From positions 1 to 64,000 of the IMG/VR virus record IMGVR_UViG_3300044846_001307: DNA of 64,000 nt, one strand, 5' to 3'. The DNA is from a virus. This document shows, piece after piece, positions 18,443 to 64,000 of this stretch. Under the pieces are notes generated by a model, which ran no database searches, was not told where the DNA came from, and saw only the letters and a list, made by a program, of their open reading frames with translations. Made by a program: the position numbers and the translations under genes. Numbering within the stretch: position 1 is the stretch's first letter; each line of letters opens with the position of its first letter.

Positions 18443-18447
18443 AGATT

Positions 18448-19029: not shown

Positions 19030-19032
19030 GAA

Positions 19033-19389: not shown

Positions 19390-19406
19390 ATTAATTATCA
19401 CTTGAG

Positions 19407-19435
19407 AAGGGTGAGTATATGCTCACCCTTTTTTT
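19407..19435 (+). terminator. Rho-independent terminator
   Basis: A 9-bp perfect stem AAGGGTGAG / CTCACCCTT with a 6-base loop flows into a T-run. It separates the exonuclease operon from the DNA polymerase gene, which begins 39 bp later. Confidence 0.9.
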
Positions 19436-19473
19436 ATTTACTAAAAGGGGGAACAGCTTAACTGAACTAGCCT

Positions 19474-21378
19474 ATGAGAACACATTGGGTAATGGATTAT
19501 GAAACTCTTAGAAATTGTTTCATAGGGGTGTTTGAAGATGTAAAATCTGAACACCAAGAAGTGTTTGTATGTCACAAGTCTCAAAATGACATTGTGGACT
19601 TAATACACTTTCTAAAAAGAAATCAAAATTTAAATGAATGGCATATATCCTTTAATGGATTAGCATTTGACAGTCAAATAACTGAACACATTCTTCGTAA
19701 TGAAGATCAGTTAATTTATGGTTATGGGGATGGTGAAGAAATTGCAAGATGGATTTATGGTAAAGCACAAGAAGCTATCCAGAAAAGTAATGATAGGGAG
19801 TTTGCTACATTTAGTCCTAAAGATTTAAGCATTAGACAAATTGATGTCTTTAAACTTAACCATTGGGATAATCCTGCTAAGAGAAGTTCATTAAAGTGGA
19901 TTCAGTATACAATGGATTGGAAGAACATTATGGACATGCCAATACATCACACTACTGAAGTAGAGAGTTCTCAGATTCCTGAAATTATCAAGTATTGTAT
20001 TAATGATGTTAAGTCTACTAAGAAGATTATGCACTTAAGTAAAGAGCAAATTAATCTTAGGAAAGCATTAACAGAAGAATATGATATAGATTTGTTTTCA
20101 GCTTCAGAGCCTCGTATATCTAAAGAATTGTTTTTACATTTCTTAAGTAAAGAAACTGGTATAAAGAAGTATGATCTAAAACAGATGCGAACACAAAGGG
20201 ATCAGATTGTCTTTAAAGATATTATATTACCTTATATTGAATTTAAGACAGCTACGTTTCAAAATCTCCTAAAGAAGTTTCAAGAAGTGGTTTTATATCC
20301 CGGAGAAACTAAAGGAGGTTTTAAATATTCTGTCCAGTATAAAGGTGTAAAGACTGATTATGGTCTTGGTGGTATTCATGGTGCAAGGTCTAGTAAAGTT
20401 TACAACTCAACTGATGATATGATTATTATGAGCTCAGACGTTGTAAGTTTCTATCCTAATTTAGCAATTAGAAACAATTGGGCACCAGCACATTTACCAA
20501 AACAAGAATTTTCTCAACTGTATGAGTGGTTCTTTGAAGAAAGAAAAAAGATTCCAAAGTCTGATCCTAAAAATTATGTATACAAAATTATCTTAAACTC
20601 AACCTATGGGTTAAGTAATGATGAGAATAGTTTCCTGTATGATCCTCAATTTACAATGAGTATCACTATAAATGGTCAACTAAGTCTTAGCATGCTGTAT
20701 GAGATGATTTGTGAAGAGATTCCAGGTGCAGTTCCACTGATGCAGAATACAGATGGTCTTGAGACTATGATTCCTAGAGAATATGAAGCACAGTATATGG
20801 AGATTTGTGCAAGATGGGAAAAGATGACTAATCTTTTATTAGAACATGATAAGTATTCTAAGATTGTTCTGGGTGATGTCAACAATTATATTGCAGTAAA
20901 TGAAGCTGGTAAATCTAAATGTAAAGGTAGATTTGAGTATAAAGATCTTGCTCTTCATAAGAATAAAAGTTTTCTAGTAATACCTAAAGCATTGCATGCA
21001 TATTTTGTAGAAGGTGTTAAACCTGAAATATTTATAAAAGAAAATCTAAACATTTTTGATTTTTGTGGTGGAGTAAAAATTAAAGGAGATTGGAAGTTTG
21101 TTGAACGTAAAGTGACAAATGGTCTCTATGAAGAACAATCTTTACAACACACAATAAGATATTATATCTCTAAAACAGGGTCTAAAGTTATTAAAAAGAA
21201 TAACTCAGATCGTAGAGAAATCCAGGTAGAAGCTGGGAAATGGATGCAGAGTCTAATGATTGACTATGTAGAAAAACCATTTGAAGAATATGATATTAAC
21301 TATGATTACTATCTAGAGAAGATAAGAAAAGAAATAAATTCTCTAGAACCATTTTCAAACCAATTAAGTTTATTTTAA
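19474..21378 (+). CDS. Family B DNA polymerase
   Basis: A 634-residue family B polymerase, short for the family. The 3'-5' exonuclease motifs are MDYET (7-11; Asp8, Glu10), ISFNGLAFD (58-66) and YCINDV (174-179; Asp178). The polymerase motifs are A SSDVVSFYPNL (320-330), B YKIILNSTYGL (370-380) and C QNTDGLE (424-430, Asp427). The C-terminus ends QLSLF (630-634), the consensus peptide that binds the bacterial beta sliding clamp, so it probably borrows the host clamp. Together with the helicase, primase and SSB it forms the phage replisome. No protein-primed TPR-type insertion was noticed. Confidence 0.93.
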   Translation: MRTHWVMDYETLRNCFIGVFEDVKSEHQEVFVCHKSQNDIVDLIHFLKRNQNLNEWHISFNGLAFDSQITEHILRNEDQLIYGYGDGEEIARWIYGKAQEAIQKSNDREFATFSPKDLSIRQIDVFKLNHWDNPAKRSSLKWIQYTMDWKNIMDMPIHHTTEVESSQIPEIIKYCINDVKSTKKIMHLSKEQINLRKALTEEYDIDLFSASEPRISKELFLHFLSKETGIKKYDLKQMRTQRDQIVFKDIILPYIEFKTATFQNLLKKFQEVVLYPGETKGGFKYSVQYKGVKTDYGLGGIHGARSSKVYNSTDDMIIMSSDVVSFYPNLAIRNNWAPAHLPKQEFSQLYEWFFEERKKIPKSDPKNYVYKIILNSTYGLSNDENSFLYDPQFTMSITINGQLSLSMLYEMICEEIPGAVPLMQNTDGLETMIPREYEAQYMEICARWEKMTNLLLEHDKYSKIVLGDVNNYIAVNEAGKSKCKGRFEYKDLALHKNKSFLVIPKALHAYFVEGVKPEIFIKENLNIFDFCGGVKIKGDWKFVERKVTNGLYEEQSLQHTIRYYISKTGSKVIKKNNSDRREIQVEAGKWMQSLMIDYVEKPFEEYDINYDYYLEKIRKEINSLEPFSNQLSLF

Positions 21379-47960: not shown

Positions 47961-50900
47961 TTATTTATTATATTGCCAAAAAGGACTATTAGTTATACCA
48001 CTGAAATTTTGTTGAGCATTTTGAATAGCTTTTTGATCCCCTGCTTGGTGGATTCTTCTAAACATATCAAAGTTCATACTAGCTGCTTGATTTAAAATTG
48101 AATTCATACTTTGTTCTTTTCCTTCAATTTCTCTACCACTTTTAACATCTACACCAAAATATTTGTAATGTGTTTTTTTAGATCCATCAGGCATCATCTC
48201 ATAAAACTCTCCAACACCTGAGTAATCTCCAACACCTGGAGTTTTCTCAATGGTATATTTACCATTACCAGAAGGATCAGTATATTTAATTGGTCCCTGT
48301 CTTAGGAGGACTTCTGTAGGAGTTGGGAACTGTTTTGAAAATAATGGATTGCTATCCCAGATATTTTTTGGTGCAATAAATGTAAGACCATTTTGGTAAA
48401 TAGCATCAATTTTATTTTTAAGAGCTTTTTCATCTCCACCATCTGACATACCTTTAATTACTTTTTCAATTACATCTCTTGGAGCTGTAAGTTTCATAGA
48501 ACCTAACTTTGTGCTTTCCATTGACATAGTTGTAGCATGAACCATAAAAGGTTTCAGTTCAGGATCTGAATTTAATCTTGATTGAAGTTCTCTTACAATA
48601 GCTGTTGCTTCATTTTGTGTAACACCAGTATTATCCCATTCTTCATCTGAACCAGGTAATTTGTTTCCATTAATGGAAATTCTAAATTTATTTTTATCTT
48701 GATTCCAGTTTGTACTTAAAATAGTACTAAACATTTGAGAGGCTGATTGATTTCCTGGATCCCAAGCAATACCTGGAGCAACTATCATAGTACCAGTCTC
48801 TGCAGCTAAAGCCACTTTATTACCAGATCTTTGAGTTCCACTAATAGGATATATTTGTAAACCTGTTTCAGGATTCATGTCTTTTGCAAGTTCTTCAAAT
48901 GATTGATCAAATACATCAGATACCCAAGAAGCTTTGTCTTTTACATTTTCTCTACCATCACCAATCATTCTAGGTAATGCTGTTAATGGAACAACATAAT
49001 TGTACCATTTTGATTCAGCTTTTTGATTTGTAGATTTACCAATACTAAAACCAAGAATAGCTGATATTTGTGCATCTACTTCAGGAGCCATAGCTTTAAA
49101 CTCATCTGTATTACCATGACTATCTAAAGCATATTTAGACATCATTAAGTTTACAGCTTGTTGAATTTTAGCATCATTTATATTTCTATATGTTTCTGGA
49201 TCTTTACTTTTTACATTCTGTACAATATAATTTATATCCTGTGTAAATTTAGTTCTGATTTTATCATAGTTATTATTTCTAACAACATTCAATGCATCAT
49301 CAGTTCTAGCAAGTTGATCTAGTTTGATCATTGATTGATCTCTGAAATACTCTTGTGCTAAACCACTTCCAGAGTGTGTAGCAGTCCAACTTTGCATCAA
49401 GTTATTTACGTTATAAATTTGACCAGAGTTAACTGTTCTAGCTGTAAAACCATTAGGATCAGATTTATATCCACTCCAAATTTGATTCCATACTTTTACA
49501 ATATCTGGTTTGTAATTCTTACTTCCTTCTTTTAGAATTCTTTTTGCAGTTGGTTCACTTGGATTTAATTTCAATACAAATTGAGCTAACTGAGCAGCAG
49601 TAAATGAATCACTAGTTACACCATTATTAATAAACTTCATTAAGTTATTCACTGGTTCAGTAGCATTCTGACTGATCATTTGATCTCTCATGTATTTATT
49701 TGCTGCATCAAGAGACATTTCTTCAGCTGTAGTTCCATCTGGTGTAACCATATTGATGTTAAAGCCTTGACTTTGAGGATTGGTATTTAATTGACCATCT
49801 TTAGTAAAGCCCCAGTATCCTTTTTTAACATTATAGTCAACAGCTTTTTGATACATTTTTGCTTGATTTGCTCTGTCTATTTCAGACTCTCTATCAAGAT
49901 GTGCTTGTTGTTGTCTTGCTCTAGCATGTTTATCTCTTAAAAATTCTAGACCTACAGGATTAGCTTTGTATTCAATCTCTTGATTAATTGTTGCATAATC
50001 ATTGGATGCTCTCATTATATCTTGCTCTGCATTAACAGAAGCAAATCCAGCATCTACTTTTAATCTAGCTAACTCAATATCACTTAAAATATCTTCATCA
50101 TAACCTTGAGTTGTACCAGTAGATTGTTTGTCATTAATTTGATCATTTAATTTTTTTGCATCATCTGCTACAGCAGTATTTACTTTTAATGCTTGATTAA
50201 GTCTATCAGCATATGATAATTGTTGAGGATTAACATTACCATTGTTTACATCTTTTTCAAGATTACCTTGTAAACTTTTAGTAGTACTTAAATCATCTTG
50301 AGCTTTAACATTTTTATCAGAAGCATAATTTTTTAACCAATCATATTTTTCTTTAATGTATTGTTTCTCTGCTTCTAATTTATTACCACCAAACTTTTCT
50401 GCATTTTGATTAGCATAAGTCATTCTTTCTACAAATGCTTTTTCTCTATACATATCTTGAATATCCGGTCTATTTGTATATTCAGCTAAAAACATATTTT
50501 GAAGAGTAGGTAAAATCAACTCTCCATTTTTCTTTCTTACTAAATATAAACCTGATTGGTCTGGTACTTGAGATACAGCTCCAACATTATACTTCTTAGC
50601 AAGATCCATATACTCTTGATATGCATTAACAAAAGGAGTATACTGTGCATTAGTCATATTTAAAGTACCCTCTAAATCAGCATCCTTAAACATTTGTCTT
50701 CTTAACTCTAAACCTTGGATACCAAGAGGCCACCATTGTTTTCTTTGTTTATCATCTTGTGAGGTTTTCAATGCATTAGCTGAGTTGTAAGTATTCTTCC
50801 AATTTTTAGTCCAAGCCATATCTTTCATTAAGTACTTGTCTTCATAGAAAGGTTTGAATACTTGCATAGCTTGATTTACATTCTGCTCTAGAGAAAGGTC

Positions 50901-51143
50901 AAGTCCGGATACTCTTTTTAGATTGAAGTCTATTTGTTTTAATAGTTCATCTTTCTTCTTGATATTTAAATCATGTGTTAAGTCAGCACCATAGAGTTGA
51001 CCATATAGATTATTTAAGGATTGCCAGTTTGTATCATACTGAGTTTGTTTTGTCTGCATGACATTTCCATAGAAATTTAAGTCAGGCTGAAACGGCTGAT
51101 AATCTGGTATATAATCTGTAACCCCTTGTAAATACGTTGCCAT
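47961..51143 (-). CDS. crAss-like virion cargo protein
   Basis: A 1060-residue protein beginning MATYLQGVTDYIPDYQPFQ and continuing with LNFYGNVMQTKQTQYD. I recognise this N-terminus from cargo-type virion proteins conserved across crAss-like phages; in phicrAss001 such proteins fill the capsid and tail and are ejected. The rest is Asn/Gln/Lys-rich and helical with no catalytic motif. It lies 5 bp before the first giant protein gene. It lacks the N- and C-terminal elements shared by the three large proteins encoded upstream. Confidence 0.82.
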   Translation of the reverse strand: MATYLQGVTDYIPDYQPFQPDLNFYGNVMQTKQTQYDTNWQSLNNLYGQLYGADLTHDLNIKKKDELLKQIDFNLKRVSGLDLSLEQNVNQAMQVFKPFYEDKYLMKDMAWTKNWKNTYNSANALKTSQDDKQRKQWWPLGIQGLELRRQMFKDADLEGTLNMTNAQYTPFVNAYQEYMDLAKKYNVGAVSQVPDQSGLYLVRKKNGELILPTLQNMFLAEYTNRPDIQDMYREKAFVERMTYANQNAEKFGGNKLEAEKQYIKEKYDWLKNYASDKNVKAQDDLSTTKSLQGNLEKDVNNGNVNPQQLSYADRLNQALKVNTAVADDAKKLNDQINDKQSTGTTQGYDEDILSDIELARLKVDAGFASVNAEQDIMRASNDYATINQEIEYKANPVGLEFLRDKHARARQQQAHLDRESEIDRANQAKMYQKAVDYNVKKGYWGFTKDGQLNTNPQSQGFNINMVTPDGTTAEEMSLDAANKYMRDQMISQNATEPVNNLMKFINNGVTSDSFTAAQLAQFVLKLNPSEPTAKRILKEGSKNYKPDIVKVWNQIWSGYKSDPNGFTARTVNSGQIYNVNNLMQSWTATHSGSGLAQEYFRDQSMIKLDQLARTDDALNVVRNNNYDKIRTKFTQDINYIVQNVKSKDPETYRNINDAKIQQAVNLMMSKYALDSHGNTDEFKAMAPEVDAQISAILGFSIGKSTNQKAESKWYNYVVPLTALPRMIGDGRENVKDKASWVSDVFDQSFEELAKDMNPETGLQIYPISGTQRSGNKVALAAETGTMIVAPGIAWDPGNQSASQMFSTILSTNWNQDKNKFRISINGNKLPGSDEEWDNTGVTQNEATAIVRELQSRLNSDPELKPFMVHATTMSMESTKLGSMKLTAPRDVIEKVIKGMSDGGDEKALKNKIDAIYQNGLTFIAPKNIWDSNPLFSKQFPTPTEVLLRQGPIKYTDPSGNGKYTIEKTPGVGDYSGVGEFYEMMPDGSKKTHYKYFGVDVKSGREIEGKEQSMNSILNQAASMNFDMFRRIHQAGDQKAIQNAQQNFSGITNSPFWQYNK

Positions 51144-51180: not shown

Positions 51181-51209
51181 TTTACTAAACCTATAAAGTT
51201 TATAGTAAA
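51181..51209 (-). repeat. AT-rich imperfect hairpin between virion genes
   Basis: TTTACTAAAC and GTTTATAGTAAA pair over 10 bp with a 2-base bulge around a 7-base loop, and CTATAAAGTTTATAG is itself a 7-bp inverted repeat. It overlaps the stop of the 1133-residue gene and sits in the longest gap of this part of the block (51144-51199). It has no T-run, so it is more likely an RNA-processing or attenuating hairpin than a full terminator. Confidence 0.4.
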
Positions 51210-54200
51210 AATGGAAGCCATGAACTAATGTCAATATAACCACTGTTTTCACGTACTGAACCACCTTTTTTTGTTGTTTGTTGTGATCCATAAACATTAT
51301 TAATTATGTTTGGATCCGGTGCAGTATTAGTACCACCTCCACTTCCTCCAGTTCTAGCACAGTCTCTTAGTAGTGCTTCACTCATACCTGGATTGTTTGC
51401 TTTACATGCATCATATGCTTTTTGCCAACTACTAGTATTATTACTTCCTTGACCAGTAACTGTTTTATCAGTAGGTCTAAAATCCATACGTCCACCAGAA
51501 GGTGCATTAACAGCATAGTTAGGGTACATCTGGTTTAATGCATCTGTTTTCCATTTATTAGTAATACCCTGTGTATAATAGTTTCTAACATTATTTCTCA
51601 TTGCTAATTTAGCATTGTCAAACTGTTGATTAGCAACTGTATTTTGATCATACAATCTTTGATTAGTTGCTTGATTCAACATACTACTTTGATTTCTAAT
51701 ATCATTTGCTTTTAATTCAAATTGATTAGCAATATTGACATTGGCATTATTATACTTAGCTAGTATATCAGCAGCATTTTTAGCAGCAGCACCTTGAACA
51801 CCTGATGATCTTAAACCTTGAGGACCAGCAAACTGTGCTAAAGCATTTGTCTGAATAGCTGCTTGTTCAGCATTAGTACCAAGTTCTTTTGTAGGATCTT
51901 GAAACACAGGTCTAGGTACACCCATTGATAATGGAGGAGCTGCCGGCATTCTTTTCTTAAGACCCATCAGATCTCCAAATGCACCTGTAGTTTTAATAGT
52001 ATCTTGTAACCACATTCCAGGAGGTTCACCCGGTACAGGAATAGTTGTATCATCTGTACAAGGAGGACAATTACCATTTTGATCAGCAGTCATCTCTAAT
52101 ACAGTACCATCAGCTTTTTGACATGGACATGTTTTAGGTTTTGCTGGTTCACATGTACAGTTGTTTTGAGCATCTTTTGGTTTATAATTTGGTTTATTTG
52201 GATCATCACATTGACATGGACCACCTTCTGGTAGATCTTCAAATTCTAAATTTCTTTTACCAACCATATATTTATGACCAGCTGTTGTATCACCATATGT
52301 AGTATAAGTACCTCTTTTTGAACCATACCAATTTTTATCATTATAATCATATGTATCATCAAGAGGAGAAATTTTATTACCTATTGGACCATATAATGCA
52401 CCCATAGATGTTTCATCTGCTGCTCCTGAATGTACAAGACTAACATTACCTAAAAAATTATCCATTGCATATTTTGCATCAGGATCATTATTATAAGAAC
52501 CACTTTCAAAATCTTTATATGCTTTTGCATAAGCATGCATAGTAGATTGTTGTAATAATCTATCTTTTCCTTTAGGTTCTAATGGTACATTAAGTTTATC
52601 TGACATTGCTGCTACAGTGGTATAACCGGCATCAGTCATACGTTTTGTTTCAGCTTGAGCTTCAGATAATGTATAAGGTTTACCTGTTTTTGGATTTATA
52701 TATTTTTCATCTAAAATTTCTTGAGGAGTATCCAGTCTATTACCTATATCAGAAAACAATTGCGGATCTACTTCATTAGCTTCAAACATTAAATTTCTTT
52801 TCTGATGCATTAAAGCTGCATTTATAACTTCATCATCTGTTGGTAAATCTCCATATTTAACAGACCATTTTCTATTTGGATCTATAGATGTAGAAGTTTT
52901 ACCTTTCCATGCTGCTGGATCATCAACAATTTGTTTTGTATTTTTTATAATCTCAGCTCTAACGGTTGGGTTATTAAGATTATCTTTAATTAACATGTAT
53001 TGAGAAGCTGCCACTCTTCCTGTAGGTGTATCTGGAAAACCATCTAAGCCATCTGCTTTAATATCAGATCCACTAGGAATTGTAAAACCAGAACTTTTTA
53101 ATTTTTGAGTCTTAACTTTTCCATCTTCTCCTTTACGTGTTACTTGTATTTCAGCATTTTTATCTTTATCTTTTGCATTCCATATAGCTCTCTGAAGTTG
53201 ATCTTCAGTCATATTAGTTGCATCAATAATTACAGGTCCACCTTGTGTAGTTGCTATACCATCTCTAGCTTTAACCATACGTGTTATTGGACCTGATGCA
53301 GGAATTCTTTTTGGTCTACCTTGATAGTTTTGAGACATACCTGCACCCATTGACATACCATACTCTGCTTCTGGCATATCATAGAAAGGCATATCATAAC
53401 CACCCATAGACATTCCATAGGCAGCCATTGGTGGTGCCATTTGTTCTTCTTCCATAGGAGGTTGTTGACCCATTGCTTGTTCTTGTCCACCTTGACCTTG
53501 GGACATTACTGATTGAATAAGACCCACAGCCTCTTCTTGAGAAACACCCAATTGAGTAAATACTTGTACTACAGCTTCAGGTGGAAGACCATTCTGTAAT
53601 AAACTCATAACAACTTCAGCAGGTTCAGCACCTCTTTGTAAAGCACCTTGAACCTCTTGCATGATTTCCATCATCTGATCTTGACCACCTTGTGCACCTT
53701 GTGCACCTTGTTGTTCTATCATTGCCATTTCTTCAGGAGATGGTTGTTGCATACCTTCTGCAGCTCTTCTTAATCTTCTCATACCACCACCATACATCAT
53801 CATTTCTTCTTGAGACATTTGTGGTTGTTGAGCTTGTGCAACAGGTTGACCTTGGTTCATTTCCTCAGCTTGCATCATTTGATTCTGATCATACTCTGAT
53901 TCCATTGTCTGATCTGAATTCTCCTGTTGTTTCATTTGTTTTTTCAACTGATCATTTAATGCACTGATTTCTTTAGCAGGTAGAATTTGTTCTTCTGTAA
54001 GACCTCTTGCTTCCATACAAGGTTTAGCTACAGCAGGAATTCCTTGAGGAAAACCTTTCATTGATTCTTGAGCTAATGCTAAACAACCTAACTTAATGAC
54101 ATACTTCTTCATCATCAACTCAGCTGATTTTCTTTCTATAGCATCAGTATCAGGATCTTCTAAGATTTTTCTATACTTCTGTAAGTCATATTGTTTTGCA

Positions 54201-54601
54201 AGTTCTGCAGGAGTGTATGATTTGTTTATACCACCTTTACCAAACATAGCAAGTACAGCTGGATCTTTTATTCTCATACCTCTAGTATCACTAAAAATAA
54301 AAGTATCCTCAGGTAAATTTAATGGTACTCCACCATTATGGTGTCTTGGACCTTTAATGATTTGTTGTTCTGGCATTCCATCACCATTGATGTCTCCATA
54401 TACAGTTTCTCCACCCTCTGCTTCTAAGTTAGCTTCATCTCTTGGTACGGCAGTAATATACTTACTAGCTATAAGTTTAGGCTTCCCTATATAAGCATTA
54501 TAGTCTGCTCCACCCATTGCTGGAACATCATTTACTAAAGCACCTTGGACTTGATATCCTGTTTTTGCTTGAGGTAATTTTTTAATTCTAACTTTTATCA
54601 T
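51200..54601 (-). CDS. Large virion protein with sorting-type motifs and Cys-rich module
   Basis: A 1133-residue protein. It starts MIKVRIKKLPQAKTG and has an EF-hand-like YGDINGDGMPEQ near residue 70, then GPRHHNGGVPLNLP and TFIFSDTRGMRIKDP, a pattern I know from phage virion proteins. Residues about 215-400 are Gln/Met-rich, with tandem helices such as GAEPAEVVMSLLQNGLPPEA. A Cys-rich stretch near 795 (CQCDDPNKPNYKPKD, then CTC and CPC) resembles one in the 1446-residue neighbour. The end is KKGGSVRENSGYIDI. It shares the N-terminal and ARxG-type motifs with two neighbours. Function as virion or ejected cargo is inferred. Confidence 0.78.
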   Translation of the reverse strand: MIKVRIKKLPQAKTGYQVQGALVNDVPAMGGADYNAYIGKPKLIASKYITAVPRDEANLEAEGGETVYGDINGDGMPEQQIIKGPRHHNGGVPLNLPEDTFIFSDTRGMRIKDPAVLAMFGKGGINKSYTPAELAKQYDLQKYRKILEDPDTDAIERKSAELMMKKYVIKLGCLALAQESMKGFPQGIPAVAKPCMEARGLTEEQILPAKEISALNDQLKKQMKQQENSDQTMESEYDQNQMMQAEEMNQGQPVAQAQQPQMSQEEMMMYGGGMRRLRRAAEGMQQPSPEEMAMIEQQGAQGAQGGQDQMMEIMQEVQGALQRGAEPAEVVMSLLQNGLPPEAVVQVFTQLGVSQEEAVGLIQSVMSQGQGGQEQAMGQQPPMEEEQMAPPMAAYGMSMGGYDMPFYDMPEAEYGMSMGAGMSQNYQGRPKRIPASGPITRMVKARDGIATTQGGPVIIDATNMTEDQLQRAIWNAKDKDKNAEIQVTRKGEDGKVKTQKLKSSGFTIPSGSDIKADGLDGFPDTPTGRVAASQYMLIKDNLNNPTVRAEIIKNTKQIVDDPAAWKGKTSTSIDPNRKWSVKYGDLPTDDEVINAALMHQKRNLMFEANEVDPQLFSDIGNRLDTPQEILDEKYINPKTGKPYTLSEAQAETKRMTDAGYTTVAAMSDKLNVPLEPKGKDRLLQQSTMHAYAKAYKDFESGSYNNDPDAKYAMDNFLGNVSLVHSGAADETSMGALYGPIGNKISPLDDTYDYNDKNWYGSKRGTYTTYGDTTAGHKYMVGKRNLEFEDLPEGGPCQCDDPNKPNYKPKDAQNNCTCEPAKPKTCPCQKADGTVLEMTADQNGNCPPCTDDTTIPVPGEPPGMWLQDTIKTTGAFGDLMGLKKRMPAAPPLSMGVPRPVFQDPTKELGTNAEQAAIQTNALAQFAGPQGLRSSGVQGAAAKNAADILAKYNNANVNIANQFELKANDIRNQSSMLNQATNQRLYDQNTVANQQFDNAKLAMRNNVRNYYTQGITNKWKTDALNQMYPNYAVNAPSGGRMDFRPTDKTVTGQGSNNTSSWQKAYDACKANNPGMSEALLRDCARTGGSGGGTNTAPDPNIINNVYGSQQTTKKGGSVRENSGYIDISSWLPFLL

Positions 54602-54609
54602 CGGGTTCT

Positions 54610-57600
54610 TTATAAATATTCAACTTGTCCTCCTGCTGCTAAGAATTGTTCTAATTCTTCTGGAGTCATATATACTTCTTCATCATCCATGTAACCACCA
54701 TCTTGCATGTAACCACCATATTGAGCAGCATTACTGTTTGCATAATTACCAAAGGTTGCTCTACTGTTTCTGTCTGATCCCATTTCATCGTATCTAAACA
54801 TACCAGTTTTACTACCTATATCTCCCCAATCTCCCTTATCAGTTTGATTAGATGCCATTACATTAGCCATTGGATCAAACTTGTCTAACAACATATTGTT
54901 TTCAATTGGATTGTTTTGCATTCTTTCCATAAAACCTAGACCTGCATTAGCCATTGAATTAAATGCATTAACTCCTGCTTCACCATCAAAGTTTCTAGCT
55001 GTTTTACGTTGTCTTTCTACACCAACATACTGATTTGGATTAGGTTGAGGTGCTGGCTCTTGAGGTATAATTTCTTGACCTTGGTTACCTAATGTATGAC
55101 CAGTATTTGCAGTTTCAGCATAAGAACCTGTCCCAGTCTGAGTTATAAAGTTGAATGGGTTTTGTTGTTGTGGCATTTTGTTAGGAGCTTGTGCACCAAA
55201 CAGATCATTTTCAAATTGAGATTGTTGAGAATAAGGATTATATCCTGCTTGATTTTGACCAGCTCCCATACCAAAACCAGTACCTACTTCAAATGCACCA
55301 CCCATTCTTTTAAAAGAAGGATTTTTTATTCTATCAACTAATGTTTTAAGAGTACCATATGCATTCTTTACATTATCAACTGCATCTCTAGCACCATAAT
55401 AAACTTGATCAGTATTGTATCTAGCACCACGTCCTTGTTCATATCTCTCAGCTTGTCTTAGATTTCTTTGACCTCTTCTAGTTTGCTCATCCCACTCTTC
55501 ATCACTAAATTGGAATCTTTCTTTTGCTTGATCTTCTAAACGATCTCTTCTACTTGTCTTTTCAGGCTTGTCATTGTTTTTGTAATTAACCATTGACCAA
55601 CCATCTTGAAGTGCATCTTTTACCATTTTTTTATCAAGACGACCAAGATTAGACTTGTTTCCAGAACCTCTACGGTTATCTAACATACCCTCAAGGTTTT
55701 GTAAATCACCCATAGGAACTCCAGTACCATCACCATCTACTTGATAGATGTCAATCCATTTTTTTCTACCACCTAATAAACCTTTCTTAGTAGTGTAACT
55801 TGCAACAGGTTTGTCTGGTATAAGACCATTATAAGATCTACCATCATTTAAATAATATGGAGAACCTTTTTGTTTAACCCATGATCCTGCAGCACCAAAC
55901 ACTGGATTCCACGGAACTAAGTTACGACCATAACCACCTGGATTTCTAACCTGTGTATACTTATAGTTCATTTTAGCTATTGGAATACACATGTTGTATT
56001 TGTCATTCCAAACTGTACCAGGACCACACTGAGTTTTCTTTGATTGCAAGCTTGCACTTGAATTTGATACACAAGCAGATCCATTCCAAGTATATCCTGC
56101 TGGACACTTCTGAGTACTTCCTTCTTCTTCTTGTTCTTCACCACCTATATTAGTATAATCTTTCAATGCTTCATCATAAAAATTTTGATAATCATCATAT
56201 GTCCTATCATCTAATTTAACATCAACATCATAGTCCCCATCTGGATTAGCAGCTTCCCAATCTTCTCTTTCACTTTTTCTATTTAATATTTCATTATCTG
56301 CCCATTCTTGATAATTCATTTTATCTTGCATACCTCTTAGCTCTCCAGCTTTGTTAGTAATAGTAATACCATCTCTAGCTTGTTCTAAATCATATGGTTC
56401 ATAGTATTCACTCTCATCACCACCATAAATAAATTTAACAAGTGGTTCTTCAGCATTCATATCTACAAATCCACCAAATGCTGCAGTAAAATCTGTATTC
56501 ATTGGTTCTTCTTCAGCAAGATTTTCTTTATAACCATCTTGCGTTAACATGTTTAGAATCTTTGGATTACCCTGAGCATTCTTATAAATATCTTTTGATA
56601 TAGCTTTATTAGAATTAGTTTTTAATGTACTAATGAAAGAGTTTTTCATGTTAGCAACATCATCTGTCAAAGTATCTTTTCTATTACCTTTACCTAATGC
56701 TTCAGTATCACCACCTTCTGCATACATTGAAACCATTTTTTTAATAAATCTGTTTTCAGAAACACCACCTTTTGCAAAATCATCAGGTAATACTTGGTTT
56801 TGTAAATTTGGGTTTACAACATTTGAATCTTGGTATCTATAATAGTTATAGTCACTAGGAGTTTGTCCTTTTAAGAATTTTAAACTATCTGGTGTCCGTA
56901 ATGAATTCGGATCAATAGTACCATCTTCTCTAATAGGAGTAGGGTCTAAAACTCTACTTGGCCCTACATCAGTACCACATGTACATTTACCAAGAGCATT
57001 TTTAGGTTGGAAGTTTGGTAAATTACGATCCTCACATTGACACGGATGTGCTAATGCATCATATGTTTGATAACCTAGATAACCTAAACCACCACCAATA
57101 AGTGTAGTCTTTAAACCTAATCTATACTTATAGTTAATAGCATTCTTAATATCAGATGCTGTTTGTGAATAAGGTATAGCAGCAGGGTCTTGAATGTTTG
57201 GTCCAAGAGCCATGTTTGCATAACCATATACAGGTTGATCAATATTTTCAATTCCTTTTGCACCAGTTCTGAATAATTGGTTTAATCCAGTTGTTCCATA
57301 TGTTTCTAAACCTCTACCAATTTTTCCTCTGTTACTTAAAGTATCCCATGTAGATGGTGGTAGACCTGTTATATCAACTTTGTTTACACCTTTAAAATCA
57401 TCCATGTAATTAGGAAAAGGAGTTGTTCCAAAATCTTTTAATAACAACTCATTCATGCTACCTGTAAATGAAGAACCAATTGGTCTTGTAACTCTTGATT
57501 TTGTTTGAACACCCATTGTTAATGGATTACCTAATGGATCAAATACATTTAATCCACCTGTCTCAGGGTCTTGATTGTAATAAAATCTATTTTTAAATGT

Positions 57601-58950
57601 AACTTCTTTAGCTTTAGGAGGTGTTGTACCAAAAGGTAAATTTTGGTTAGGACCAAAAGTATGTTTAAACTCAAAAAATTTATTACCAGCATCATCTTCA
57701 CCACCAATAACTTTTGTTTGAGGAGGGTAAATACCACTAATCAAACCTTCTTGTTGAGACATGTTACCGTAAAGGTCTTCTAATGTAAAAGGTTCATTAT
57801 TGGTTCTTTCTAATTGCATTATTAAATCTTGAACATCTGCTTGATCTAATACTAACCTATCAGCTTGTAAGCTACCATCAGTTCCACCAGCATATGTCCC
57901 ATTCTGACTAAACACTCCTGTTTTTGGAGTAGCTCCATTAATAACATTCCAAAGCTCAGTTCTATTCTGTGTAAATGGAGTAGCTAATTTTGGAGCAAAC
58001 TTTGCTCCTACATAAGGTAACCTAGTCATTGCATCACCAATACCTGTAAATACAGGTAATGCTTTACGTACTGTAGATAAATTAGATAAAGGATTTGCTT
58101 TGTTAGCATATCCAATAGTTGGAACATACTCAGCTAATTTTTGAAGTGCATTTTTAACAGGAGGTGTATTTAATCCATATTGTGCTCTTGGTAAATAATC
58201 TTGAGGTTGGTAAGAATCAGATGCACTTCTGTAATCACCTAAGTAATAAGATAGATCTGGAGTTGCTGGCATCTGTTGTGCACCTGGTGTCATAGCAATT
58301 AAATCTTCCATAGAGAAAGGTTTTCCTTCAGGTGTTTTCCCCGGTGTACCATACTGATTTATTACAGTTTGTTCTCTACTTGGTTGTTGGTTAGGGTTCA
58401 TATCTTCAAATTCAGGATACTCTCCACCATCATCAAAGTAACCACCATATTTAAAAGCTTGTTCTTCTTCATCCTGTGTCATTTCTAAAGCAGAATTCTG
58501 ATTCATTTGTGCATCTTCCTCATCATATAAACCACCATCAGAAATTGCTAGTTCTTCTTGCTCTGCATCTGAAGCTGCTCTTTCATTATCTTCATCTGTT
58601 TGTTGCTGTGGATTAGCTGGTTCTTCTGTTTGAGTTTTATCTTCAACTAATTCTGGATCAACATAACCTTCTTCTGCAAGTTTACTCATAGCAGATTTAA
58701 TAAGCATTATAGATGTATTCTCATCTAATGCATACTCATTAATAAGTTGATTAAATAACATATCAGGTGTAGCATCATTTTTTAATGATATATAAACCTG
58801 ATCATATATTTGATTTAGTTTAGCCGGATCCATACTTGGAGTTCCTACTTCCATACCCATAGCTGCTTTTTCTAAAAACTTAGCAGTTTTGTTATAGTAC
58901 CCTGGAGTTTCACCTGGAAGTGCTTTTCTAATCCTTACTTGCTTCTTCAT
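54610..58950 (-). CDS. Large virion protein with Cys-rich modules and GG tail
   Basis: A 1446-residue protein starting MKKQVRIRKALPGETPGYYN. The helical part near 45-105 (ATPDMLFNQLINEYALDENT) matches the tandem helices of the 1133-residue neighbour. Cys-rich pieces follow: CQCEDRNLPNFQPKN near 635, CPAGYTWNGSAC near 945 and CGPGTVWNDKYNMC near 975. Acidic Gly-Tyr motifs such as KYGGYFDDGG and QYGGYMQDGG recur. The last residues are MTPEELEQFLAAGGQVE, homologous to the ends of two other proteins here. It is separated from the 1133-residue gene by 8 bp. No enzyme domain was identified; a structural or ejected role is inferred. Confidence 0.78.
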   Translation of the reverse strand: MKKQVRIRKALPGETPGYYNKTAKFLEKAAMGMEVGTPSMDPAKLNQIYDQVYISLKNDATPDMLFNQLINEYALDENTSIMLIKSAMSKLAEEGYVDPELVEDKTQTEEPANPQQQTDEDNERAASDAEQEELAISDGGLYDEEDAQMNQNSALEMTQDEEEQAFKYGGYFDDGGEYPEFEDMNPNQQPSREQTVINQYGTPGKTPEGKPFSMEDLIAMTPGAQQMPATPDLSYYLGDYRSASDSYQPQDYLPRAQYGLNTPPVKNALQKLAEYVPTIGYANKANPLSNLSTVRKALPVFTGIGDAMTRLPYVGAKFAPKLATPFTQNRTELWNVINGATPKTGVFSQNGTYAGGTDGSLQADRLVLDQADVQDLIMQLERTNNEPFTLEDLYGNMSQQEGLISGIYPPQTKVIGGEDDAGNKFFEFKHTFGPNQNLPFGTTPPKAKEVTFKNRFYYNQDPETGGLNVFDPLGNPLTMGVQTKSRVTRPIGSSFTGSMNELLLKDFGTTPFPNYMDDFKGVNKVDITGLPPSTWDTLSNRGKIGRGLETYGTTGLNQLFRTGAKGIENIDQPVYGYANMALGPNIQDPAAIPYSQTASDIKNAINYKYRLGLKTTLIGGGLGYLGYQTYDALAHPCQCEDRNLPNFQPKNALGKCTCGTDVGPSRVLDPTPIREDGTIDPNSLRTPDSLKFLKGQTPSDYNYYRYQDSNVVNPNLQNQVLPDDFAKGGVSENRFIKKMVSMYAEGGDTEALGKGNRKDTLTDDVANMKNSFISTLKTNSNKAISKDIYKNAQGNPKILNMLTQDGYKENLAEEEPMNTDFTAAFGGFVDMNAEEPLVKFIYGGDESEYYEPYDLEQARDGITITNKAGELRGMQDKMNYQEWADNEILNRKSEREDWEAANPDGDYDVDVKLDDRTYDDYQNFYDEALKDYTNIGGEEQEEEGSTQKCPAGYTWNGSACVSNSSASLQSKKTQCGPGTVWNDKYNMCIPIAKMNYKYTQVRNPGGYGRNLVPWNPVFGAAGSWVKQKGSPYYLNDGRSYNGLIPDKPVASYTTKKGLLGGRKKWIDIYQVDGDGTGVPMGDLQNLEGMLDNRRGSGNKSNLGRLDKKMVKDALQDGWSMVNYKNNDKPEKTSRRDRLEDQAKERFQFSDEEWDEQTRRGQRNLRQAERYEQGRGARYNTDQVYYGARDAVDNVKNAYGTLKTLVDRIKNPSFKRMGGAFEVGTGFGMGAGQNQAGYNPYSQQSQFENDLFGAQAPNKMPQQQNPFNFITQTGTGSYAETANTGHTLGNQGQEIIPQEPAPQPNPNQYVGVERQRKTARNFDGEAGVNAFNSMANAGLGFMERMQNNPIENNMLLDKFDPMANVMASNQTDKGDWGDIGSKTGMFRYDEMGSDRNSRATFGNYANSNAAQYGGYMQDGGYMDDEEVYMTPEELEQFLAAGGQVEYL

Positions 58951-59007
58951 AACATGTTATATATATAAATATACTAAATTTTAATTTAATCAATACACTT
59001 TAAAAGT

Positions 59008-62000
59008 TTACTCATCCTCAATGATATAACCATCTTTAATATACTGATCTATTTCTTTTTTAGATAACTTGGCTACCATACCACCTTTTTTATTTTTTGG
59101 TTTTACCCACGGGTTAGTTAATAACTCTTCAGCTTTACTATAAACTTTTTTAACAGGCTCTGTAACATATTCATCAAGATATTCTTGAGGTGCAGCCATA
59201 CCCATACCAGCAAGAGCTGCAGCATAAGCAGCACCATAACCATATCGTTCTATTAAACTTTGTAAATTTCCTCCTTGAGTTCTCCAATCAAACTCATCAT
59301 TTCTAAGTTTATCCATGTTAACAGGAATGTATCTATTAGAAAAAGGTAATCTTCTATGGAATGAAAGACCTGGTTCAGATAAAGGAATACTAGGCTTTCT
59401 ATTACCAAGAGCATCTGTAACTAAAACACCATTTCTATTAGACATTTTTTGAAAACTTATATCAGAACCAGGAACATTTCTATTAAATTGAGCACCAAAT
59501 ACTCCTGAATATTGTTCATTAGGTTCATTAAGTTCAGCCCAATTACCTTCAGACATAATTTGATTTTTACCCATTCTTAATAATGGACCAGCTGAAGGAT
59601 TTAATTCTCCAGACATTTTTACATAATCTAATGTATCACCAAATTTTCTAAATGCTGTACCATCCATAGGATTCATTTTTTCTCCATAGAAAGGAAGAGC
59701 ATTTAAAGGACTTCCTGTAAATGGACCCATTTTTTCAATGCTTGTACCAAACAAAGGTATCCTTACTGGATTTATCATTATAGGTGCTATATTTTTAGCT
59801 AATGAATTTACAGTACCTATAGTACCTATGTTAGCCATTCTTGCTGCAGTTTTACCTGATGCACCTAAAGATTGTAATCCTTTAACAATTGCACCAGTTC
59901 TAGCTTTAATTAAACCACCATCTGAATAACCTAACAAATTTGTATTCATTGGTTGTTGAGGTACTCTCCATCCAGGATTAACTTTATTAATATTAAACTC
60001 ACCAAAACCTAAACCTTTACTTAATGTATTAATAGGTTTTGTGATAGATTGAAATTTTGGTTGACCTATACCAGGAATAGCAGTACTTGGATTACCCATA
60101 AATATTCCAGATCCAGGTGTTGCAGCATTATATGTAAATGCATATCTACTTTCCGGACTAAGATTTGCTATCATAGTTCCCGGAGTTTTTAAAGTATTAA
60201 GTGTCTTAAAAGCATTTTTAGCAACTCCTACAGCAGGTAGTGCACCTAAAGCATCTAATGCAGCTGTACCATAGTTTCCTTTCTCAAAGTTATCATATGC
60301 ACTTTCAGCAAAAGCTGGTGCATTTGCATAGTAACTAAGTTGACTAATTGGATTATTAAATACATTAGACATAAGTGGTTTTATCAAATTGGGCTTATAC
60401 CATTTAGCACCTTTTGTAATTGCATTTAATCCTTTGATACCACCATATGTGGATCCAACATCCCATAATTCTTTCCCTACAGCAGGAAGAAACTCTCCTT
60501 TATCATAACCTTCTCTTAGATTGAAACCAATCTTAAATGGATTAAAAGGTTGTAAAAGAAAGTTAAAAGGACTCATTACACTTACAGGCATTGTACCTAA
60601 ATCCTCTCCTGTCTCATCTTCAATCTGTTTTCTTTGAGAATAGGTTAAATTTTTAGGTCCATCCCACATACCTTCTCTCGCATTCATTGCATAGTACATA
60701 CAATCAAAAGGATGTTTTAAACAATCTTTTACTTTAGCTCCAGTATTTTCATCAATATTAAATTGATTTCCTGAAACTTGTTTTATTGTGTCAGGATTTT
60801 TTTCATATAAAAGTCTAGCCTCTATACTGTTATTTAATATATCGGCATATGTTTCTTTTTTATCACCAGTTTTTTGTTCTAATAATTTTTGCATTGCTTG
60901 ACTAGGATCCTCTTGAAATGATTTTAATATTTCAAGTTTACTTTTTTGTGTAGAACCTGCATTATCTAATGCTTGTTTAAGAACTTGTTTAGTAGCATCT
61001 GATTGAAAATTTTGCATGTATGCTAAATAAGCATCATTAAAATCTTTAGCTTTAGCAGTATTTGCAGCAGCTAGTGCATTCTTTTGATTTAAAGTTTGGT
61101 TCAATAATGCATTGTTCTGTCTAACATTAGCCATAGCATCATCTTTTGCAAAAGTAAGTCCATCATACTGACCTGCTTTTCCATACTTATCCATCCAATC
61201 TGAATAAGCTTTCTCACCTCTTTCAGTTTTTTGAGATTGATAATTAATAAAATCTCCTAAGTTATTTGTACCACTATGATATCTCTTTTCCCATGCAGTC
61301 ATTGGGTCATCAGATTCTAAAAATATTTTACGATCCTGATCAACCTTAGCTCTATCAGTTCCGGGTATAGAATCTATATTTGAAACAAGACTTGCATATG
61401 CATCATCTATTATTTTATTTGTAGGTTTTTCAAATGTAGATTTTAAACCTGACTGTGTCCCTATTTTAGGAGAAAGTCCTTTAATAACTTGGTCTACAGG
61501 TTTACCTTGCTCAATGGCTTTTGTAAGTATACTCTTAGTTACTTCAGCTTCATAGTTAGCTTTAGCTGCTCCCATTAAATCTCCAAGTTGTTCTTTAACT
61601 TGTTTAGGATCTAAACCCCAATAGTTTTTAAATTGCTCTGCTTGAAAACCATTTGTAATAATTCTATCTTGAACTATGTTTTTAGGAAACAATTCTATAT
61701 AACCATCTTTCTTATGAACAAGAAAATTATTTTTTAACTCAGCTTCTTCTTCCGGTGAAACATTAGATTCTGGAATTTTTTTCCAAGGTTCAATTTTATC
61801 TTGTTTTTTAGATTTAGCAAATGTCTCACGATATTTATCACTCTCTTCTTTATACCATCTTTTTTGTTGTTCATTTGCTTTAGTACGTATATCATTTATG
61901 TCTTTAGCTAAAGCTGTATTTCTAGCTAATTGTTTAGCTTCAAAGTCTTTTTGTATTTGATTCATTTCTGCTTTAGAAGCAGCAATATATTCTGATTCAG

Positions 62001-62265
62001 GTAAACATTGTCCATTAAACTCATACATACCTGGAGGACATCCTTCACCTCTCATATAACCTGGCAATGATTCATTCCAATATGATGGTTGCTGTACTCC
62101 TTGTACTTCTACCATAGGAGAAGCTGGTGTTTCCCCATCATATGGATCTTGTGATTTATTTGAAGATTTAAATTTACTTTTTTTAAGTCTACTATTTTTA
62201 ATTGTTTTACCAAATCTGGCTTGAGGTAATTCCTGTGGAATACTAGTTATTCTGTACTTTGCCAT
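59008..62265 (-). CDS. Large virion protein with shared N- and C-terminal elements
   Basis: A 1085-residue protein, numbered from the ATG at 62265 (a GTG one codon earlier is also possible). It begins MAKYRITSIPQELPQARFG, followed by a Lys/Ser-rich stretch resembling the basic 46-residue protein. CPPGMYEFNGQC lies near 75-86. The middle is charged and helical (about 100-500). Gly/Ala-rich stretches near 600-700 may be membrane-active (YGTAALDALGALPAVGVAKN). LIKARTG sits near 785. It ends LSKKEIDQYIKDGYIIE plus DE. A 57-bp AT-rich gap separates it from the next gene. Its role is unknown but it is probably a virion cargo protein. Confidence 0.78.
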   Translation of the reverse strand: MAKYRITSIPQELPQARFGKTIKNSRLKKSKFKSSNKSQDPYDGETPASPMVEVQGVQQPSYWNESLPGYMRGEGCPPGMYEFNGQCLPESEYIAASKAEMNQIQKDFEAKQLARNTALAKDINDIRTKANEQQKRWYKEESDKYRETFAKSKKQDKIEPWKKIPESNVSPEEEAELKNNFLVHKKDGYIELFPKNIVQDRIITNGFQAEQFKNYWGLDPKQVKEQLGDLMGAAKANYEAEVTKSILTKAIEQGKPVDQVIKGLSPKIGTQSGLKSTFEKPTNKIIDDAYASLVSNIDSIPGTDRAKVDQDRKIFLESDDPMTAWEKRYHSGTNNLGDFINYQSQKTERGEKAYSDWMDKYGKAGQYDGLTFAKDDAMANVRQNNALLNQTLNQKNALAAANTAKAKDFNDAYLAYMQNFQSDATKQVLKQALDNAGSTQKSKLEILKSFQEDPSQAMQKLLEQKTGDKKETYADILNNSIEARLLYEKNPDTIKQVSGNQFNIDENTGAKVKDCLKHPFDCMYYAMNAREGMWDGPKNLTYSQRKQIEDETGEDLGTMPVSVMSPFNFLLQPFNPFKIGFNLREGYDKGEFLPAVGKELWDVGSTYGGIKGLNAITKGAKWYKPNLIKPLMSNVFNNPISQLSYYANAPAFAESAYDNFEKGNYGTAALDALGALPAVGVAKNAFKTLNTLKTPGTMIANLSPESRYAFTYNAATPGSGIFMGNPSTAIPGIGQPKFQSITKPINTLSKGLGFGEFNINKVNPGWRVPQQPMNTNLLGYSDGGLIKARTGAIVKGLQSLGASGKTAARMANIGTIGTVNSLAKNIAPIMINPVRIPLFGTSIEKMGPFTGSPLNALPFYGEKMNPMDGTAFRKFGDTLDYVKMSGELNPSAGPLLRMGKNQIMSEGNWAELNEPNEQYSGVFGAQFNRNVPGSDISFQKMSNRNGVLVTDALGNRKPSIPLSEPGLSFHRRLPFSNRYIPVNMDKLRNDEFDWRTQGGNLQSLIERYGYGAAYAAALAGMGMAAPQEYLDEYVTEPVKKVYSKAEELLTNPWVKPKNKKGGMVAKLSKKEIDQYIKDGYIIEDE

Positions 62266-62267
62266 CA

Positions 62268-64000
62268 CTATATTTTTTCAAACGTATAACCTAATTTCTT
62301 TAATTGTTGCATAGTAGCTTCATCTATTTCATCTCCAAGTTCATAATCAATAGAACCTCCTTGTTGAGCATATTGCATTTCTTCTTGAGAATCATTTTTT
62401 GCAATATAGTTAAATAGATCTTTTAATCCTTTCTCATCTTTTACAACTTTGAAAAGATTGTATAATGCAGGATCATAATTAGGATTATTTTTATCCAATG
62501 CACCATTTTTCTCTGCTTCAGATTTCCAAGACTTAATATCCTCATCTGTAATAACTTGTGTTGGTTGAAGACCTTTACTTTGTCTTACCTCAAATATTAA
62601 AGACTGTATGTTGTCTTGACTAGGATCTGTAAGATAATCATAATAATCCCTAGCTGCTTTTTTATCTGCACCTTTAAGATCACCCCAACCTTCTTCAAAT
62701 GATTTTAAGTTAGGTTGAATAATAATTTGTTCAGCAGGTAATATTTTATCACCAAATTTATCCCAAAGTCTTGTTCTTTCTTCATGTGCAATAGTTGAAT
62801 TTAATTCTTTTGGATCAGCTTTCAACTTTTCATTTAGTAATATTTTTTCAGCATCACCCTCATCATCATACACTAACTCTCCCATTACATTTGGATCATC
62901 ATTAATTATACTAGCATACTCATAAGGCACAGATTGATTTAATTCATCCAATAGTGGAGATTGCGGATTATAAACTGGTAAGAATTGTTTTAATGTACGT
63001 TCATATGTCTTATTACCTATTTCATCAAAAGGTAATTGTCTATTCCCATACCAGTTACTAAAGTAAGAGTTTGCATCTATTAAATTACTTGAAGGATCAT
63101 TTTCTTCAATAGGTGTATCCATTTGAACAGGAGCTGGGCCACCATTTCTTTTTTGGTTTAAAGCACCTCCATATTTTCTTTCAGCATCTATTAATTTCTG
63201 TTTATTACCAGTTGTTAAATACTCTTCAAATGATTTTACTAATTTTTTTTCAACGTCACTTTGTTGTTCTTGATTTTTTGAAGCAGCATTTAAGTAAGAC
63301 ATTATCAAAGCATCATCAAGATCTTTATATAACTCCTGTTGTTTTATTTTCTTTACATCACTCTCATCAAAAACTGTTATTTCTCTTGGATCAAAAGCAC
63401 CAGTAAAACCTTTATCTCTTAATGCATCTGCAGCTTGAGCTTGACTTGTTCTAATTAAATCTTCATTACCAGTTGGATTAAAACTTGTTCTTAAAGCCTG
63501 TTCATACTCATATCCATTTTGAAAATTTCTTGGATCTACACCATTTATCAAGCCTACTTTTTTTATAAAGTCATTAGTCATTGGTGCATTATAATTTAAA
63601 AAGTTTTGAGGATTTTTAAATAAAGCTTCTGAAACATAAGGTGTAAATGTTTTAGATTGAGGTATTAAACCATAACCACCTAAACTACTACTTCTAGCTG
63701 CACTTGCAGCAAAGTCAGGATGTTGTGTAAAATATGCACCACCTTCTTGATTACCTAAACCACTACCTCTAAAAGATCTATCAAAATTTTCAAATGATGT
63801 TTTATGTCCAGTTAAACCACCTGTTATTATTGGTTGATCACCATCATACATAATTGGATTGTAACCACTATACTGAGTTAAAAAATCACTCTCTAGCATA
63901 GGAACTTTTTCCAATAATTTTTTTGTTTGCTGTAAGTCTAACTTTGGCAATTCAAACTGAGCACCTGGAATAGCAGCTGGAAGATTAATCTGACTAGATA
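62268..64000 (-). CDS. Partial large virion protein with ART-like and degenerate zincin-like regions
   Basis: The frame stays open to the right edge (about 577 codons visible), so the N-terminus is missing; the first in-frame start-like codon, TTG at 63950, is probably internal. The region with GHKTSFENFDRSFRGSGLG, GGAYFTQHPDFAASAA and later FTGAFDPREITVFDESD resembles ADP-ribosyltransferase-like domains of large phage polyvalent proteins. STIAHEERTRLWDKF looks like a zincin helix whose second His is lost (HEERT instead of HExxH). The end is IDEATMQQLKKLGYTFE after a GG, shared with two other proteins. It probably is an ejected effector or virion protein. Confidence 0.75.
   Translation of the reverse strand, partial: SSQINLPAAIPGAQFELPKLDLQQTKKLLEKVPMLESDFLTQYSGYNPIMYDGDQPIITGGLTGHKTSFENFDRSFRGSGLGNQEGGAYFTQHPDFAASAARSSSLGGYGLIPQSKTFTPYVSEALFKNPQNFLNYNAPMTNDFIKKVGLINGVDPRNFQNGYEYEQALRTSFNPTGNEDLIRTSQAQAADALRDKGFTGAFDPREITVFDESDVKKIKQQELYKDLDDALIMSYLNAASKNQEQQSDVEKKLVKSFEEYLTTGNKQKLIDAERKYGGALNQKRNGGPAPVQMDTPIEENDPSSNLIDANSYFSNWYGNRQLPFDEIGNKTYERTLKQFLPVYNPQSPLLDELNQSVPYEYASIINDDPNVMGELVYDDEGDAEKILLNEKLKADPKELNSTIAHEERTRLWDKFGDKILPAEQIIIQPNLKSFEEGWGDLKGADKKAARDYYDYLTDPSQDNIQSLIFEVRQSKGLQPTQVITDEDIKSWKSEAEKNGALDKNNPNYDPALYNLFKVVKDEKGLKDLFNYIAKNDSQEEMQYAQQGGSIDYELGDEIDEATMQQLKKLGYTFEKI

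Follow-up and report, generated by a model that had tools for sequence, protein, structure and literature searches.

How do crAss-like bacterial viruses choose the proteins that they load as cargo? One locus raises this question: in the viral record IMGVR_UViG_3300044846_001307 (G000; 76,724 bases), three adjacent proteins of 1261, 1086 and 1446 amino acids (aa) finish with one shared short element of roughly 20 residues. We analyzed bases 1 to 64,000 of this record, referred to as the window, and read its remaining part as locus L004. The element is borne by a little-studied group of crAss-like bacterial viruses. As a short conserved tail on effector-type proteins it offers a testable answer to the question of cargo selection, and on balance we lean towards reading it as a C-terminal docking tag for cargo loading in this group.

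A C-terminal element shared by three adjacent proteins

The tails read ...GGSIDYELGDE-IDEATMQQLKKLGYTFE-KI in the 1261-aa protein, ...GGMVAK-LSKKEIDQYIKDGYIIE-DE in the 1086-aa protein and ...GGYMDDEEVY-MTPEELEQFLAAGGQVE-YL in the 1446-aa protein, with a GG 9, 4 and 8 residues upstream, respectively. All three are located where an initial annotation of the window had noticed them, and score 25.5, 40.5 and 43.3 bits with the matrix described below, compared to at most 10.6 bits in shuffled proteins; the protein listed there with 560+ residues is actually 1261 aa long and extends past the window. Gln8, Gly13 and Glu17 had been described as fixed. Among 68 distinct tails Gly13 is indeed invariant, and Glu17 as well as the upstream GG are each at least 90% conserved, but Gln8, common to the three window tails, is not conserved in relatives. 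When 35 full-length proteins of the tagged positions were aligned blind, the glycines of the internal and terminal element were the sole invariant columns.

A second copy (ELTPKEIQEYAKGGFIIED) lies inside the 1261-aa protein, beyond the window and some 860 residues from the C-terminus, and matches the tail of the 1086-aa protein over 20 residues (60% identity, expectation value (E) 0.016, BLAST among window proteins). With our first position-specific scoring matrix (PSSM), a degenerate copy that begins at residue 156 of the 1446-aa protein reached 12.9; it is absent from the held-out hits and was left uncounted.

The element probably folds as helix-GG-strand, a term that we use for a sequence pattern with weak model support, because AlphaFold2 confidence was low and the strand was missing in one model. 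The internal copy was modelled as a helix followed by a strand (the best of five models has a mean predicted local distance difference test score (pLDDT) of 59.5, and the remaining four stay under 40), and the 1446-aa tail as a helix only (mean pLDDT 54.7, about 72 over the last 20 residues); these models are too weak for fold searching. At the codon level, comparison of all pairs of 13 tails gave 437 nonsynonymous and 314 synonymous differences versus a neutral ratio of 3.52, and these counts, though saturated and non-independent, are consistent with constraint on the protein. The pair of window and L126 alone gives no sign of constraint, since the synonymous/nonsynonymous differences over the last 22 codons are 0/0 for the 1446-, 1/3 for the 1261- and 4/5 for the 1086-aa protein.

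Position of the element in related genomes

A search with the exact DNA pattern EI..Y..GG[YF][IV][IV]E[DE] returned 118 matching stretches of viral contigs, where by a rough, uncomputed estimate fewer than one chance match is expected in the viral set, and zero matches in the bacterial and archaeal genome collection. An 1846-aa protein resembling gp44 of crAss001 is present in 16 of 16 records checked (15 with pattern hits plus L124, fetched by protein search) at 50-94% identity; to the extent tested, the element is therefore a property of a single group. The pattern is biased towards internal copies, which make up most of its hits, and the C-termini in these loci carry other subtypes (GDEVYMTEEELEEFLANGGEVEYL, GDEVDEATMKQLKKLGFTFEQI, VAELSDDEIQDYINQGYIVEEV, WEDELDDHTIELLRKAGYTVEELD), which are linked by intermediate tails such as GDEVELTEAEVKRLRSLGYTIEQI. 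Because a narrow hidden Markov model built from the pattern hits failed to detect the 1446- and 1261-aa tails, we adopted an iterated PSSM and then a held-out PSSM.

The held-out PSSM rests on 165 distinct elements, with 34 removed as present in ten test genomes or in the nearest relative, L002, and with homologues of these 34 retained in training. The ten genomes, the record of the window and nine of the 16 records, were mostly chosen for holding the pattern and comprise 1076 non-overlapping open reading frames (ORFs) of at least 60 aa (361,158 residues). At a threshold of at least 10 bits we detected 34 copies in 24 proteins. Each of the 24 has a C-terminal copy, in which Glu17 is followed by 2-4 residues, and the 10 further copies are internal. 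Twenty shuffles of the 1076 ORFs yielded 0.1 hits each, and reversed ORFs did not exceed 1.4 bits. All 24 proteins are encoded directly after the 1846-aa homologue, by the next two genes in six genomes and by the next three in four, if record G007, whose second gene is split by the record ends, is treated as circular. The initial annotation had named three findings that would speak against its reading: an element equally frequent in non-virion proteins, one equally frequent at internal positions, and one not kept in relatives. The first and the last did not occur, since every element-bearing protein of the ten genomes lies in the cargo slot and the element is conserved in relatives. The second occurred in part, with 10 internal copies compared to 24 terminal ones, all within the tagged proteins.

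An independent sample was collected with the 1060-aa family (A9), which is encoded downstream of the tagged genes. Among the best 80 of 157 relatives, 58 loci had a recognised gene start and 22 were dropped. Counting all distinct 3′ ends, which partly overlap the training loci, the element is terminal in 37 of 41 genes at position -2 (the 1446-type) and in 38 of 58 further upstream, and in none at position -1 (0/45), at the 1060 gene itself (0/47) or downstream (0/41). With new 3′ ends only, that is, those whose last 90 bases are found in no previously fetched locus, these numbers are 18/19 and 14/24 for the upstream positions, and 0/31, 0/37 and 0/36 (0/104 together) for the remainder. The sole miss at -2, L268, is a 1133-type end shifted by an additional 223-aa ORF, and of the ten misses at the more distant upstream positions, five have an ending like that of the 1846-aa protein, as judged by eye. 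In locus L206, fetched via the 1846-aa protein only and located on the same contig as L272, the element ends both following genes. When the first PSSM was applied to the wider set, a terminal copy was present in 110 of the 121 element-bearing ORFs whose 3′ end is known.

As separate observations, an alternative ending GG..[IL].KL.KF[IT]. occurs in four of the remaining 11 ORFs (L040, L128, L026 and L054), and a GG...KL.KF..-type ending also replaces the element in L240 and L247.

The wider set, fetched with the pattern that favours internal copies, holds 131 copies not at a known C-terminus. A motif of the type LP.A[QKR].G or P.L[TN], described by regular expressions written post hoc, occurs at 10 of 568 N-termini of ORFs of at least 150 aa in the ten genomes, all of them of the 1086- or 1133-type, and follows 50 of 104 internal copies at a distance of at most 30 residues; shuffle means are 0.1 and 0.0, respectively. 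Likewise, 20 of 21 ORFs that start with [KR][VY][RK][IVL] lie inside the cargo block. We read internal copies as fused module ends because so many of them are followed by an N-terminal motif of neighbouring cargo: about half look like the C-terminal tag of one module joined to the N-terminal tag of the next. The large proteins of the block, called otherwise different by the initial annotation, are largely so, but N-terminal motifs recur among them and the 1133- and 1446-aa proteins have a Cys-rich segment in common (see below). The idea that N-terminal strand and C-terminal element form one small fold is unsupported, as 1261-type proteins have the tail without the N-terminal motif and 1133-type proteins the motif without the tail.

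In L249, L254, L259/L260 and L264, the 1446-type and 1133-type proteins are a single ORF (1714, 1772, 1865 and 1477 aa). Homology to the 1133-type occupies the C-terminal part, and BLAST recognises the 1446-type N-terminus in L249 (E 3.6e-9), L264 (1e-7) and L254 (5.6e-5); in L259 this part was recognised by its similar N-terminus only. All four fused ORFs finish with the 1133-type ending and none scores an element copy. This absence suggests that the tag may be dispensable once the 1446-type protein is tied to its 1133-type neighbour.

Possible roles of the element

The element, its terminal position, its restriction to one slot, its conservation, the effector-type domains of its carriers and its loss in the 1446+1133-type fusions were computed directly. 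We scanned 35 proteins from tagged positions (33 with the tail; those of L129 and L040 without) and Pfam reported SET in 11 of them, and ART-PolyVal, SLT, Phage_lysozyme2 and PG_binding_1 in one each. These domains would fit injected effectors and wall-opening enzymes, as for polyvalent proteins in the sections of PMC5512222 available to us. Polyvalent proteins are likewise large and multidomain with exchangeable effector domains, and one slot protein holds ART-PolyVal (PF18760) itself; they differ in that a short C-terminal tag common to them goes unmentioned in the same sections. The main text of PMC5512222 does not contain the term SET domain.

As a docking tag, a short amphipathic helix, followed by GG or GY and a short strand, would form a docking unit that marks two to three modular proteins, cargo or effectors, to be loaded into the virion during assembly. 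A single receptor of the prohead or its cargo core would bind both helix and strand; the likeliest candidate is the assembly to which the adjacent 1133-family protein belongs. With the tag unchanged, effector modules (SET, ADP-ribosyltransferase, murein hydrolases) could then be swapped; internal copies would mostly be tags of modules fused head to tail. Of the docking or sorting role suggested by the initial annotation, what holds is a common C-terminal element on adjacent, largely unrelated slot proteins, conserved and not found elsewhere in the ten genomes; presence in virions, loading and the receptor are what we infer. Such a tail could predict virion cargo from sequence, and perhaps serve as a loading tag for engineering.

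One comparison is with the capsid targeting sequence of phage T4, which the element would resemble in its way of working without being a member. In T4, according to parts of PMC3012670 and PMC5694885, a short terminal sequence is the only common feature of diverse injected proteins (the internal proteins and Alt). What the tagged proteins, as putative virion cargo, chiefly have in common is our element, yet N-terminal motifs are shared as well. The T4 sequence is N-terminal, spans 10-20 residues and is cleaved after Glu, whereas the crAss-like element is C-terminal (24/24), also internal, and of other sequence; because of these differences in position and sequence we do not count it as a member. 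Encapsulin cargo-loading peptides, terminal in position, are another parallel, likened by description only: in the descriptions at hand they are short peptides that load cargo into HK97-fold shells, with other sequences and another receptor.

Several observations weigh against a docking tag for cargo loading. Many copies are internal, in the tagged proteins themselves; about five ORFs of the first cargo position in the new sample, the true exceptions among the genes further upstream (L217, L240, L247, L267 and L270), and 11 of the 121 element-bearing ORFs of the wider set lack a terminal copy; the 1133-aa neighbour lacks the element altogether; and the fusion cases are few and perhaps related. 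At a threshold of at least 10 bits, no copy was detected in crAss001 (30-79 kb) or phi14:2 (1-98.5 kb), where the best score is 6.1, or in the 25%-identical relatives L207-L213. Moreover, gp45 and gp46, which occupy the corresponding slot of crAss001, show no detectable homology (0.4% or less, hhalign with single-sequence targets) to the 1446-, 1133- and 1060-families, the three covered by this comparison.

The tail could instead be a SutA-type RNA polymerase-binding element, in which helix, GG and an added strand would clamp the beta protrusion of host or phage polymerase and hold injected effectors there. The order helix-GG-strand is identical in both. The family PF20661 (SutA-RBD) matches 22 of 26 tails of the 1446-type (best E 5.5e-5), which are not independent because the tails are homologous. 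It matches no C-terminus among 68 others taken from these loci, for which 0.019 is the best value obtained with any family. Nothing but the 1446-type end is matched in 10 of 12 records. We mapped the SutA register by hand on the 1446 tail of the window. Seven of ten interface residues tested in the portion of PMC9300723 available to us (M71, F74, L75, G78, G79, V81 and I84) align with tail positions 6, 9, 10, 13, 14, 16 and 19, and L67, K60 and R64 are without counterpart. However, the best match reaches 22.2 bits compared to a Pfam cut-off of 29.3, above which none of the 12 records lies, 10 of 14 control genomes also give some match at E up to 10, and in the mixed tail set just 15 of 68 match. 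In searches of the PDB with the tails SutA was not listed, the presence of a SutA chain in the database copy being unchecked, and unrelated proteins with a helix-GG-strand turn matched weakly. SutA is a small bacterial regulator, whereas the tagged proteins are phage virion-slot proteins that score below the family cut-off. We consider this explanation unlikely; the match may reflect a common docking manner rather than a common partner. More doubtful still is a combination of both roles, with the SutA-like tail as packaging handle beside the virion polymerase and, after injection, as RNA polymerase anchor that would place SET methyltransferase and ADP-ribosyltransferase modules at the transcription machinery. 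A SutA likeness that proved functional would connect the packaging of proteins to the takeover of transcription.

Glu17 and the fused modules also invite a reading as processing site or propeptide, in which a phage protease would cut after Glu17, trim the tails and free modules from polyproteins. The conservation of Glu17 fits, as does the fact that a motif present at N-termini of neighbouring proteins comes after 50 of the 104 internal copies, and the passages of PMC5694885 consulted describe T4 and SPN3US proteases that cleave after Glu in short motifs and a C-terminal propeptide shed by T4 Alt. A cut at a terminal copy would, however, take off only 2-4 residues, and an S78 protease was not found in the 12 records, although the positive control matched; an S77 protease was not found either, but its control was also silent, which makes that search uninformative. 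Processing appears improbable to us, slightly below a polymerase-binding role.

Still less credit goes to a structural cap or oligomerisation mini-domain that ends long flexible proteins and has no sorting role. Helix and strand are weakly predicted for the internal copy, and DUF7210 (PF23843) matches 4 of 68 tails, some of the 1261-type (best E 9e-6); at the family cut-off of 27 bits none of the 12 records lies above, with one weak match. If it were a general cap, further large proteins should bear it as well, but the element is limited to one gene slot in the ten genomes and is missing where the 1446-type is fused to its neighbour. Finally, chance sharing of a few residues can be practically dismissed: the window tails are identical at no more than three positions, of which Gln8 varies in relatives, but held-out PSSM scores lie far above those of shuffles, intermediate tails connect the subtypes, and the new 3′ ends of the independent sample also speak against chance. 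A type 9 secretion C-terminal signal was likewise rejected, with none among the 16 NCBIfam families matched by the 68 tails at E up to 10.

tblastn against GenBank phages with the 560-aa fragment, two element peptides and a 345-aa protein returned nothing relevant, one of these searches giving only Rhodobacter matches at E of 4 or more, and no description of this C-terminal element turned up in the accessible parts of the open-licence literature.

Genomic setting and further shared segments

Profile comparison placed the minus-strand block as the crassvirus virion block (Table 1). The 1846-aa protein resembles gp44 of crAss001, which we take to be the muzzle protein (hhalign 70.5%; 92.3% versus the gp44/phi14:2 gp82 pair). 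In GenBank, gp44 is labelled ‘stabilization protein’. The 1261-, 1086-, 1446-, 1133- and 1060-aa proteins sit between the gp44-like and gp47-like genes, and the same slot in crAss001 holds gp45 and gp46, in agreement by gene position. According to the consulted part of PMC10172136, gp45, gp46, gp47, gp49 and gp50 of crAss001 were detected in virions by mass spectrometry. The 3315-aa RNA polymerase matches phi14:2 gp77 alone with 99.8% (hhalign). PHROGs and Pfam were silent on the tagged window proteins, except for SET. A LysM domain (PF01476) lies at residues 1654-1692 of the gp49-like protein.

Table 1. Features of the locus (window positions unless a locus is named).
Feature	Position	Strand	Remarks
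gp49-like protein, 1978 aa	24677..30613	-	hhalign 95.8% to crAss001 gp49
RNA polymerase, 3315 aa	30615..40562	-	DFDID motif; hhalign 100% to crAss001 gp50/phi14:2 gp77 pair
gp47-like protein, 2463 aa	40564..47955	-	hhalign 98.2% to crAss001 gp47
1060-aa protein	47961..51143	-	gene used to fetch the independent sample
1133-aa neighbour	51200..54601	-	without element
Conserved hydrophobic ending of 1133-family (GGSVRENSGYIDISSWLPFLL, e.g. GGFVYGDIVYPFIL)	51203..51265	-	separate from the element
N-terminal motif, 1133-aa protein (MIKVRIKKLPQAKTGYQVQG)	54542..54601	-	
1446-aa cargo-slot protein	54610..58950	-	
Terminal element, 1446-aa protein (EVYMTPEELEQFLAAGGQVEYL)	54613..54678	-	43.3 bits, held-out PSSM; kept in 23 aligned relatives
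N-terminus, 1446-aa protein (MKKQVRIRKALPGETPGYYN)	58891..58950	-	similar type by eye, outside the regular expressions
1086-aa cargo-slot protein	59008..62268	-	1085 aa counted from ATG
Terminal element, 1086-aa protein (VAKLSKKEIDQYIKDGYIIEDE)	59011..59076	-	40.5 bits, held-out PSSM
N-terminal motif, 1086-aa protein (MMAKYRITSIPQELPQARFGK)	62206..62268	-	
1261-aa cargo-slot protein, C-terminal part	62268..64000	-	rest, with SET domain and internal element copy, beyond window
Terminal element, 1261-aa protein (GDEIDEATMQQLKKLGYTFEKI)	62271..62336	-	25.5 bits, held-out PSSM
1261-aa protein, SET methyltransferase domain at residues 58-138	L004:2269-6054	-	Pfam

The 1133-residue protein lacks the element, as had been noted, and has its own conserved ending instead. 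In this family 41 of 45 distinct ends match P[FPIY].. compared to 3 of 178 other ORFs, by a regular expression chosen post hoc, and the ending may represent a second, different tag. In addition, the 1133-aa (52151-52219, minus strand) and 1446-aa (56977-57045, minus strand) proteins have in common a Cys-rich segment of 23 residues (CQC...CTC; 61% identity; E 3e-6 in BLAST run without composition correction), a small module that might bind metal. Another Cys-rich module, starting LLTKKVTCKKC and zinc-ribbon-like by eye, recurs beside element copies in L002:6465-10001 (plus strand), L026, L033, L054, L078 and L091.

In L207, a distant relative without the element, a cargo-slot protein (16772-19939, plus strand) starts with NWLDKYEQGG and ends with GWEKYNKGGWLNKYK, perhaps an analogous tag but of a different kind. 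In L227, L228, L236, L268 and L270 we observed an ORF of 223-224 aa inserted between the 1133- and 1060-type genes; it ends with SRKLSGKR.NKTTFKYI and is perhaps, at a guess by eye, a homing endonuclease.

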